A DNA stretch of 64,000 bases. It comes from Blastochloris sulfoviridis. Its GTDB lineage: Bacteria > Pseudomonadota > Alphaproteobacteria > Rhizobiales > Xanthobacteraceae. The DNA lies in assembly GCF_008630065.1 (NCBI RefSeq), contig NZ_VWPL01000020.1, positions 1-64,000 on the forward strand. Reading direction: 5' to 3'. Positions 8,157 to 38,694 of the stretch are shown here, one piece after another (the first letter of the stretch is position 1; every line of letters starts with the position of its first letter). The notes below the pieces were generated by a model. The model made no database searches and was not told where the DNA came from. It saw only the letters and a list, made by a program, of their open reading frames with translations. A program made the translations under genes and the position numbers.

Positions 8157-9251
8157 CTAGGCCGTCGTAATGATGTCCGGCGCGGGGGCGCGCTGCGGCT
8201 CCGACTCCTCGGGCTTGGGGCGGTCGAGATACATCTTCGTCAGGAACCGGAAGATGACGCCGATCGCCGCCGCCAGCGGCACCGCGACCACGAGGCCGAA
8301 CAGCCCGAACAGCTTGCCGAACGCGAACAGCGAGAACATCACCCACACCGGCCCCAATTCCACCCGGCGCCCGAGCAGATAGGGCGACAGCACGTAGTCG
8401 GCGATGGTCTGGCCGACCAGGAAGACGGCGGGAACCTGGAGAACCAGCAGCCAGCTCGGCCAAGACTGGGCCAGGGCGATGAGGGTGGCGACGACGAGCC
8501 CGGTGAGAAATCCCAGATAGGGAACGAAGCTGAGGAGGCCGGTGGCGATGCCGATGATCAGGGCGTGGTTCAGGCCGATCAGGCTCAGCGCGACCGCATA
8601 GAAGACCGCGAGCACGAGGCACAGCGTCGCCTGTCCGACCATGAAGCCGCTGATCTTGTCGTTGATCTCGCCGGCCAGCGCATGCACGGTGTCCTTGTGG
8701 GCGTCCGGCACGCAACGGTCGAGGAAGGTGGTGATCCGATCCCAGTCCTTGATGAAGTAGGCCGCGACGATCGGCACGACGATCAGCACCGACAGCACCG
8801 AGATCAGCTCCTCGCCGCCCGACCAGGCGGAGCTGAGGAAGCTCTCGGCCGAGCTCACCGCCGCCGAGGACAATTCCGAGAACGCCTTCTCGGCCTGCCC
8901 CATGCCGTCGCCGAACACCCGCGCCAGCCACGGCCGGTCCGGACTGCCGGCCGTGAACTCCTGCAGCTGGCGGAAGTAGGCCGGCGCCCGCTCGACCAGA
9001 TAGCTGAGCTCCTTGATGACGATCGGGCCGGCAACGACGACGAGCCCGATCAGCACGACGCCGATGACCGCGAAGATGCCGAGCGCGGCGCCGAGCCGGC
9101 TCACGCCGAGCCGTTCCAGGCGGATCACCAGCGGGTTCAGCACATAGGCGACCGCGGCCCCGGCCACGAAGGGCAGCAGGGCCTCGCGCAGCACCGTCGC
9201 GGACACCACCACAACGGCAAGGAGCGCCAGCCATGCGTGCTTCTGGACCAT
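8157..9251 (-). CDS. AI-2E family transporter (PerM/TqsA-like permease)
   Basis: The 364-residue polytopic inner-membrane protein has the family layout: two N-terminal hydrophobic hairpins, a long amphipathic periplasmic insert (about 95-150), then a C-terminal membrane block with the characteristic GLLSFVPYLGFLTG and a PLLG-like stretch (SPYLLGRRVELGPVWV). Family members export autoinducer-2 or act as ion/solute antiporters, and the substrate cannot be told from sequence. The start ATG 9251 directly precedes the first hydrophobic segment. The gene is the upstream member of a probable two-gene minus-strand unit. Confidence 0.85.
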   Translation of the reverse strand: MVQKHAWLALLAVVVVSATVLREALLPFVAGAAVAYVLNPLVIRLERLGVSRLGAALGIFAVIGVVLIGLVVVAGPIVIKELSYLVERAPAYFRQLQEFTAGSPDRPWLARVFGDGMGQAEKAFSELSSAAVSSAESFLSSAWSGGEELISVLSVLIVVPIVAAYFIKDWDRITTFLDRCVPDAHKDTVHALAGEINDKISGFMVGQATLCLVLAVFYAVALSLIGLNHALIIGIATGLLSFVPYLGFLTGLVVATLIALAQSWPSWLLVLQVPAVFLVGQTIADYVLSPYLLGRRVELGPVWVMFSLFAFGKLFGLFGLVVAVPLAAAIGVIFRFLTKMYLDRPKPEESEPQRAPAPDIITTA

Positions 9252-9993
9252 GCGCGATGCCCGTCCCGACCTCCGCCGGCCCGACGAGGCCGGGTCGGAT
9301 GCCCCGAATGAATGGTCCGGCGCATTTCCTGTCGCAAGCCGTCCGGTCTTGCAAAAATGCGTCCGCCCCGCCGCCGTCCCTCAAGGCTTCCGGACAAGGT
9401 GCCTGCGCAGACTAGGGAAGTTCGAGAGAGCCGACAACGACGCGATCAACTCTAGCATGAAATGGCTGTGATTCCGGTTCCCTGGCGTCGGGAGGAGCCA
9501 TCCGCGGACCGGACCGGATGTCCTCCGGGGCATTCTCCGCAACAGTGGGAACCGGTTTTGCGAAAGAGAATGCGACAACCCAAGGACTTGAGAAGCGTCC
9601 GCTTGGTTCGAACTTGCCAGCGGACGCGCTAACGACGGCAGCGTGCGCGGACCGCTGGGTCCGGTCGCGGATTTTCGCGACATCCTCGATGTCCGCACCA
9701 CCTCGATCATCGCCGCCATTCTGCCGGACAGAGGAAAGCCGCCCGCTCGTCCCCATTTGCGGGGTCCGGTCCCGGATCTTCGGGCGCATCACGTCTTTGC
9801 TTCGGCACGGCGGCTCCGGCGTCAACCGCACCCCCGGCGCAGCCAGACCACAAGCGGTTTCACGCGTCTGTTATCCATTGGTGCAATCCGGGTGAACGCG
9901 ACTACGTATAAATAAGCAGAGCGCGCGTGAAGGGACGCTCTTTCGTTCGAAGCGGCAACACGGGTAGAACAATCTCTCAATGGAGTGTGGAAT
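9252..9993. other. Intergenic region with family A and D repeats, upstream of the LH1-gamma gene
   Basis: No coding gene is supported in this 740-bp stretch. It holds family A copy 2 (9530-9630) and a weak family D copy (about 9628-9680). An AT-rich TATAAATAA at 9907-9915 lies about 80 bp before the LH1-gamma start and may be part of its promoter. No convincing PpsR (TGT-N12-ACA) or FNR box was seen. Confidence 0.45.
9530..9630. repeat. Family A dispersed palindromic repeat, copy 2
   Basis: It has the same GCATTCTCCGC ... GTGGGAACCGGTTTTGCG ... AGAATGC stem-loop as copy 1. The second stem (AGCGTCCG ... CGGACGCG) is slightly degenerate. Confidence 0.85.
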
Positions 9994-10167
9994 ATGAAGA
10001 AAGCAGCTGCAATCGGGGCAGCCACTCTGCTCCTCACGTCGACGATTGCTTCAGCCTACGTCAACCCGGATGGATCGATTACGCCGAGCATCACCGACTC
10101 CTATCTCTGGATCAATTTCACAATTCTTGGCCTGCCGGCCATCTGGGCGGCGATCCTGTACAGCTAG
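9994..10167 (+). CDS. LH1 gamma antenna polypeptide (B1015-gamma-like) precursor
   Basis: GGAG lies 8 nt before ATG 9994. The 57-residue product has a signal peptide of 21 residues (KK, a hydrophobic core, then ASA) and a mature part of 36 residues starting YVNPDG. The mature part has a short polar head (NPDGSITPSITDS) and one membrane span (about residues 16-35) with aromatic residues at both ends (Y16, W18, F21, W30, Y35). Established knowledge: the B1015 antenna of Blastochloris viridis contains a 36-residue, single-span gamma subunit packed between LH1 alpha/beta pairs around the reaction centre. Length, aromatic belt and sequence type fit. No puf genes are nearby, so it is a stand-alone locus. 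A cleavable signal implies N-terminus periplasmic. Identification is from memory of the family and not from an alignment. Confidence 0.75.
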   Translation: MKKAAAIGAATLLLTSTIASAYVNPDGSITPSITDSYLWINFTILGLPAIWAAILYS

Positions 10168-10190
10168 GCATCGCGGATGCGCTGAACGGC

Positions 10191-10212
10191 GGCGGCGCCA
10201 AGCTGCGCCGCC
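10191..10212 (+). terminator. Possible terminator hairpin after the LH1-gamma gene
   Basis: An 8-bp perfect stem (GGCGGCGC / GCGCCGCC) with a 6-nt loop starts 23 nt after the stop codon. No T-run follows, so it may only stabilise the mRNA end. Confidence 0.35.
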
Positions 10213-10260
10213 TTCGCGGCCTGCTGGACGGTCAGGCTGCGCTCGTTCAGCGAATAATAC

Positions 10261-10350
10261 CAACGTCGGCGGTAGCCGACCGTTGGTTCAACTTGCGAAT
10301 TTTCGCGAAATCGTTGATTTCCTTAAAGGAAATTCGCAAGATTCACGGCC
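10261..10350. repeat. Family D dispersed repeat, copy 1
   Basis: It starts with CGGC..TAGCCGACCGTTGGTT and includes an 11-bp stem CTTGCGAATTT / AAATTCGCAAG (10292-10302 with 10330-10340). A related element is at 38436-38520, and a weaker one near 9628. Confidence 0.6.
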
Positions 10351-10380
10351 TCACGCGTCAGCGTTTAGGGCCGTTAGTGT

Positions 10381-10417
10381 CATACGGTTTCCGGCCAAAT
10401 CGGCCGGAAACCGTATG
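10381..10417. repeat. Perfect 16-bp-stem palindrome
   Basis: CATACGGTTTCCGGCC pairs perfectly with GGCCGGAAACCGTATG around a 5-nt AT-rich loop. It sits between two 25-bp direct repeats (10354-10378 and 10467-10491). It lacks a T-run in either direction. Confidence 0.85.
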
Positions 10418-10492
10418 ATCCGTTTCCTTGAATTTCGCAAAGTCCAACCGCGAGGCTGAATGGCCCCGCGTCAGCGTTTGGGGCCGTTGGTA

Positions 10493-10852
10493 TCAGGCCG
10501 CTTGGCGCGAGTCCGCCTGGGTGGCGGGCCGGCAGGTGGGCTGCGGCTCGGCGGTGTCGGGCGCATCGGCGATGCTGACCGTGATTCCGGATTCGCTCAG
10601 GCGGCGGCCGAGCCATTCCATGCGGGCGGCCTGCGAGCCGGCCTGCGGAAATTCGCTGCCGCTGCGCTGCAGCCGCTCGGCCATCAGGCAGATGCAATCG
10701 GCCATGAACGCCAGCGGCAGCTTCACGCGGGTCATCCCGTCATGGCAGCGCCGGCGGTCCCAGGCGGCGGCGATGACGCCCTCGCGCGCCTTCTCCGCGG
10801 TCTGGTTGGTGAAGGCGGCAAGTTCCTCGTAGGTCAACCACAACTGGGGCAT
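10493..10852 (-). CDS. Hypothetical protein, 119 aa
   Basis: ATG 10852 starts MPQLWLTYEELAAF, with GGGAG about 11 nt upstream; the frame extends to 10903 without better signals. The N-terminal LTYEELAAFTN plus AAWDRRRCHDGMTRVKLP pattern recurs in small uncharacterised alphaproteobacterial proteins and resembles a helical DNA-binding-like fold. A central LAFMADCICLMAERL segment contains two cysteines. Function is unknown. It is transcribed divergently from the secreted-protein gene at 10993. Confidence 0.65.
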   Translation of the reverse strand: MPQLWLTYEELAAFTNQTAEKAREGVIAAAWDRRRCHDGMTRVKLPLAFMADCICLMAERLQRSGSEFPQAGSQAARMEWLGRRLSESGITVSIADAPDTAEPQPTCRPATQADSRQAA

Positions 10853-38392: not shown

Positions 38393-38694
38393 ACCCGGAT
38401 GCCTCCAGCGCCGAGGCCGCTCGGGACGATCCCGACGACGCCGGCAGCCGACCGTTGGTTCCTCTCGCGCGTGTTCATGAAATCGCTGATCCCCAGAAAG
38501 AAAATTCACGAGAGCGAAAGGCCCGAAGCGACGTCATCCGCGGCCGTTCGTCGGATGCCACGTCTGGCCGCGCCGGCCGAAGATCCGCACTCCGTTGCCG
38601 CAAACCCCGTTTGCGAACGGGGATGCACGGCAGGACGGCTGGCAGGCTCACACTGAGACCCCGCAATTGCGGCACAGCAGCCGGCGAAAGCGGC
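38393..38694. other. Intergenic region with a family D repeat
   Basis: It lies between the two Inh/Omp19-like genes and holds family D copy 2 (38436-38520) and an accccgtttgcgaacggggat hairpin near 38605, similar to one near 55108. No gene is supported. Confidence 0.55.
38436..38520. repeat. Family D dispersed repeat, copy 2
   Basis: It begins CGGCAGCCGACCGTTGGTT like copy 1 and keeps the ATGAAATCG/CGCGAAATCG core. A degenerate stem (CTCTCG ... CGAGAG) sits where copy 1 has its 11-bp stem. Confidence 0.6.

Follow-up and report, generated by a model that had tools for sequence, protein, structure and literature searches.

The window, which is the whole stretch of 64,000 nucleotides analysed from Blastochloris sulfoviridis, contains a small gene on its forward strand (Table 1). 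The original prediction, made from the letters alone, had described a gene of 57 codons with a strong ribosome-binding site, a 21-residue signal ending in ASA and a mature peptide of 36 residues, and all of this was borne out; the precursor consists of MKKAAAIGAATLLLTSTIASA (signal, 21 residues) followed by YVNPDGSITPSITDSYLWINFTILGLPAIWAAILYS (mature, 36 residues). The sample for comparison comprised three Blastochloris genomes, namely the host assembly of the window (G000; 3,845,334 bp in 91 contigs), G001 and G002.

Table 1. Position and basis of the features at the gamma-4 locus of the window
Feature	Position	Strand	Basis
LH1-gamma-4-type precursor gene, 57 aa + stop	9994..10167	+	ATG at 9994, TAG ending at 10167; PDB 9j2f gamma homology; orthologues 84-86% in two other species
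Signal peptide, 21 codons, ASA at end (ALA in both orthologues)	9994..10056	+	Sequence; cleavage position by homology with Edman-determined mature gamma
Mature gamma-4, 36 residues, single transmembrane span	10057..10164	+	Conserved PSITD, LW, ILG.P.IW.A..Y
Shine-Dalgarno GGAG, 8 nt before ATG	9982..9985	+	Invariant across three species
17-bp leader block	9860..9876	+	0 differences in 17 bp among three gamma-4 leaders
Upstream cassette part	9805..9993	+	Shared with G001 gamma-4 (from about 9860 also G002); neighbours differ beyond
Dispersed intergenic repeat copy, directly 3' of the gene	10240..10405	+	
Partial copy of the dispersed intergenic repeat, 5' of the gene	9630..9694	+	Same orientation as 10240..10405
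Perfect 17-18 bp inverted repeat, weak T tail	10379..10419	+	Fold z -7.4

Identity of the gene product

A small gamma subunit enables Blastochloris to carry out photosynthesis with light beyond 1000 nm. In phmmer searches, the window peptide matched the gamma chains of PDB 9j2f with E values of 8e-17 (9j2f_F) and 3.5e-10 (9j2f_G), which confirmed its membership of the LH1-gamma family; the gamma of 6et5, with 24 resolved residues, gave a weak match to the 57-residue product. No model of Pfam or NCBIfam matched the peptide (for Pfam, nothing was returned up to an E value of 1). The puf genes are present in the host genome, where PF00556 found pufB and pufA as its only two matches; the window peptide is not an LHC alpha or beta polypeptide. 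As had been proposed, the gene is not part of the puf operon: contig C33 carries pufB and pufA, whereas the window is on contig C12.

The reading frame is not a product of chance, because it has the matches to the PDB gamma chains, orthologues of 84-86% identity in the other two genomes, and codon differences among these orthologues that cluster at third positions with a low dN/dS (about 0.14-0.25). Since dN/dS stayed in this range throughout, the gamma-4 protein is constrained. For the cleavage site, the clustered gamma copies of G002 are informative: when cut after ASA, the three copies have T, T and V as mature residue 34, and PMC9788563 reports that Edman degradation of Blc. viridis gamma gave 36 residues with T:V of 2:1 at position 34. 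Because these copies reproduce both the length and the ratio, homology supports that the window precursor is likewise cut after ASA to give a 36-residue mature form. From the predicted cleaved signal, it can fairly be expected that the N-terminus of the mature peptide is periplasmic.

Gamma genes in three Blastochloris genomes

The search for further gamma copies yielded two more genes in G000, clustered on contig C4 (C4:38640-39874), and a gamma profile search of this genome recovered all three. G001 also has three gamma genes and G002 has four; in each genome one stands alone and the rest are clustered (at 2.045 Mb in G001 and 1.954 Mb in G002). Two clustered G001 products equal, as aligned, both gamma sequences of 9j2f; G001 was therefore taken to be the species from which that structure came, which is probably Blc. 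tepida. G002 was read as Blc. viridis because its T, T, V at position 34 equals the published 2:1 heterogeneity. According to Namoon 2022 (PMC9788563), Blc. viridis has four gamma genes, three of them clustered and one divergent, named gamma-4, and gamma-4 was undetected in purified LH1.

Since the window gene shares 86% identity with the stand-alone copy of G001 and 84% with that of G002, compared to 50-58% for all clustered copies, it is, judged by its sequence, the LH1-gamma-4 orthologue in Blc. sulfoviridis. Twenty-three columns are invariant across the 10 gamma genes, and PSI.D, LW and ILG.P.IW.A..Y, which are invariant in gamma, are intact in the window peptide. The original prediction had taken the gene for the B1015-gamma subunit itself. 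The family part of this claim holds but the choice of copy does not, because the clustered C4 genes are B1015-gamma. The alignment with known gamma proteins showed homology to 9j2f, but both gamma sequences of that structure match clustered G001 genes and not the window type. None of the 9j2f gamma chains is a counterpart of the gamma-4 type, and no structure containing this type was found. The idea that the window gene is the ordinary B1015-gamma subunit of Blc. sulfoviridis is in line with the shared family, the precursor layout and the 36-residue mature form. However, the two clustered G000 copies have orthologues that are present in LH1 (9j2f), while the window copy groups with gamma-4, which was undetected in viridis LH1, and both the low identity to clustered copies and the lack of a promoter-like box (see below) place the peptide outside B1015-gamma proper (gamma-1 to gamma-3). 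We consider this idea very improbable.

The second clustered copy (G000:C4:38640-38807; G001:C1:2045346-2045513) encodes a 35-residue mature form. In 9j2f, the G001 product of this copy ('gamma1') is present as 1 chain, compared to 15 chains of the other gamma, and thus one position of the LH1 ring seems to take a dedicated gamma.

Upstream region and regulation

The three gamma-4 leaders share the 17-bp block TCACGCGTCTGTTATCC without a single difference (17/17 bp), compared to only 30/57 third codon positions of gamma-4 that are invariant in the three species. An invariant run of 17 bp at a given place has a chance of about 2e-5, before allowing for the choice among about 200 columns. The block is absent upstream of the clustered gamma and puf genes, and no known regulator site was recognised in it; it is probably a promoter or operator. 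Upstream searches for FnrL, PpsR/CrtJ and sigma-54 patterns gave nothing shared, and no sigma-70 match was found in the gamma-4 leader. A hairpin in the 5'-UTR (AGAGCG...CGCTCT) occurs in all three gamma-4 leaders, but its stability was no better than that of shuffles and it was discarded. Rfam gave no match.

Upstream of all seven clustered genes, about 177-196 bp from the start, is a box, CCATTGCATTC, which is exact in six of them and has 1 mismatch in the seventh; a TA-rich, TAGTGT-like hexamer follows it by about 16 bp. This box is missing from all three gamma-4 leaders, in which the best site had 4 mismatches. Because the gamma-4 leaders lack the box and share a different block, gamma-4 appears to be regulated separately from the clustered gamma genes; its published absence from LH1 agrees with this.

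The clustered gamma genes are about 1.1-1.2 kb apart from start to start, and each has its own promoter-like box. This spacing, together with a box for every gene, suggests that they are separate transcripts and not the one joint transcript that PMC9788563 infers.

Chromosomal location

In G001, gamma-4 is at 3.70 Mb, compared to 0.29 Mb for puf and 2.05 Mb for the gamma cluster; in G002 it is at 3.33 Mb, compared to 0.66 Mb and 1.95 Mb; and in G000 the three are on contigs C12, C33 and C4, respectively. A location apart from puf has already been reported for all gamma genes and is not special to gamma-4. The neighbours of gamma-4 in G000 are a gene for an AI-2E-family transporter (8157-9251, minus strand) and an exopolysaccharide-type cluster. 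These flanks of the window are also found in G001 at 2.175-2.179 Mb, where the counterpart of window positions 9282-10527 (1245 bp) spans 320 bp without a gamma gene. Gamma-4 of G001 (3.703 Mb) adjoins a hemY-like gene and a response regulator; in G000 this interval measures just 170 bp, and in G002 it lacks a gamma gene. In G002, gamma-4 (3.330 Mb) is a neighbour of efp; no gamma gene lies close to the efp orthologues of G000 and G001. The three gamma-4 loci have in common only the reading frame and about 130-190 bp upstream. The gamma clusters, unlike the gamma-4 loci, kept homologous flanks in all three genomes. No two of the species have gamma-4 and its upstream stretch at the same place in the chromosome; sulfoviridis has no gamma-4 at the tepida site, and tepida has none at the sulfoviridis site. 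When genes were assigned by eye in G001:C1:3698000-3708500, gamma-4 was seen beside a PhyR-like response regulator/sigma-factor locus and the hemC-hemD-hemY region.

In G000, copies of a dispersed intergenic repeat flank gamma-4 on both sides; G001 has a copy on the downstream side, oriented alike. G000 and G001 each contain at least 40 copies, and G002 far fewer. Gamma-4 may have been relocated by recombination between such repeats; with so many copies, their proximity could be chance. The repeat is about 130-150 bp long (ACCAACGGCGGCG...GGGGCCGTTGGTA), its copies are 74-85% alike, and the window holds another at 38425-38566. The inverted repeat behind the gene, with arms TCATACGGTTTCCGGCC and GGCCGGAAACCGTATGA, also occurs scattered through the genus, with short matches in G001 and G002, and is possibly a terminator-like hairpin.

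Divergence and distribution

Blc. sulfoviridis and Blc. tepida are the closer pair genome-wide, with an ANI of 91.5% vs 83% (PMC7193936). However, 20/57 third codon positions of gamma-4 differ between G000 and G001, compared to 141/1342 in six comparison genes (Fisher p 1.5e-6), whereas the comparison between G000 and G002 was ordinary (13/57 vs 338/1313, p 0.76). Had the tepida gamma-4 descended vertically at a normal rate, its divergence from that of sulfoviridis should be about one third of what is seen. Because this divergence is excessive for the closest pair of species, three origins were considered: the tepida gene was replaced from another lineage, is an older paralogue, or evolves fast; three sequences cannot separate these. 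Phage-borne horizontal transfer of gamma-4 was also considered and found no support.

Outside Blastochloris, scans for gamma in 84,980 species contig sets and a viral collection, and profile or protein searches in 397 genomes of the order and 101 genomes of the family, returned only chance-level matches. The best of them had an E value of 0.003, and such matches lay inside long unrelated frames. Since nothing above chance level was found there, the claim stands that gamma is confined to the genus Blastochloris.

Possible role of gamma-4

According to PMC9788563, viridis gamma-4 expressed in trans from the puf promoter in a gamma-free LH1 gave 1003 nm, compared to 1018 nm for gamma-1. We suggest, with a probability of roughly 85%, that the sulfoviridis orthologue is an exported single-span gamma paralogue with its own leader, most likely an alternative antenna-tuning subunit. 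The window gene would encode a divergent paralogue of the gamma subunit, which packs outside the LH1 beta ring. The signal peptide would export the precursor, and cleavage after ASA would leave a single-span peptide, its N-terminus presumably in the periplasm, that could fill the gamma sites between the beta polypeptides. By analogy with the viridis orthologue, the red shift may be smaller, about 1003 nm and not 1018 nm. The distinct conserved leader, unlike the box of the clustered genes, points to expression most likely under conditions other than standard phototrophic growth. For Blc. sulfoviridis, we infer both this regulation and the use as an alternative antenna-tuning subunit.

It is also conceivable that the peptide serves in another role, for example as a factor in assembly or, like PufX or protein W, as a subunit on the gap side. 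Its single span, its one copy per genome and a leader unlike that of the clustered genes would agree with this, but the retained invariant gamma positions and the red shift that the viridis orthologue imparts to LH1 would then be hard to understand, and we give such a role hardly any credit.

Gamma-4 might be nearly idle, since the viridis deletion study (PMC9788563) reported no phenotype attributable to gamma-4 under any tested condition. A decaying or idle spare without a present role, retained by chance, would also agree with the lack of detection in viridis, with chromosomal positions that are not conserved and with a tepida copy that was probably horizontally replaced or fast-evolving. 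However, the frame is open in all three species with third-position-biased changes and a dN/dS well below 1, the Shine-Dalgarno sequence and the 17-bp leader block are invariant, and the viridis copy works when it is expressed (1003 nm). An idle spare is thus unlikely, and the alternative antenna-tuning subunit is preferred. A further step is tentative, and we regard it as somewhat doubtful: gamma-4 may be a self-contained cassette of leader and reading frame that moved between sites, and perhaps between lineages, and that is under selection, separately switched, and alters the tuning of LH1 in some light or redox regime that experiments have yet to cover.

The gamma subunit sets the low-energy limit of known photosynthesis, and every Blastochloris genome examined (three) keeps a divergent gamma of a type not found in LH1. 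The changing position implies that gamma-4 is retained for its own sake and not for its neighbours, and the conserved leader, which differs from that of the clustered genes, offers a concrete handle on the condition that switches it on.

Comparison with known systems

A gene of this kind is already known and published; the change of site, the distinct leader and the odd divergence in tepida were not found in the limited open-access literature. LH1 alpha and beta (PF00556, LHC) are small antenna peptides with a single span like the window peptide, which differs in having no Pfam match; the genes of alpha and beta belong to puf, and neither polypeptide is made with a signal peptide. B1015-gamma (gamma-1 to gamma-3), the gamma and gamma-1 of 9j2f and the gamma of 6et5 resemble the window product more closely, with a signal, a single-span mature peptide of 35-36 residues and the invariant core, but they are only 50-58% identical to it, are clustered, share the CCATTGCATTC box and are the copies present in LH1. 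The closest known system is LH1-gamma-4 of Blc. viridis, which in PMC9788563 is, like the window gene, single, stand-alone, divergent and away from the photosynthesis gene cluster. The stand-alone copy of G002, read as this gene, is 84% identical to the window gene and has the same layout; it differs in species, in chromosomal neighbourhood and in 10 residues.
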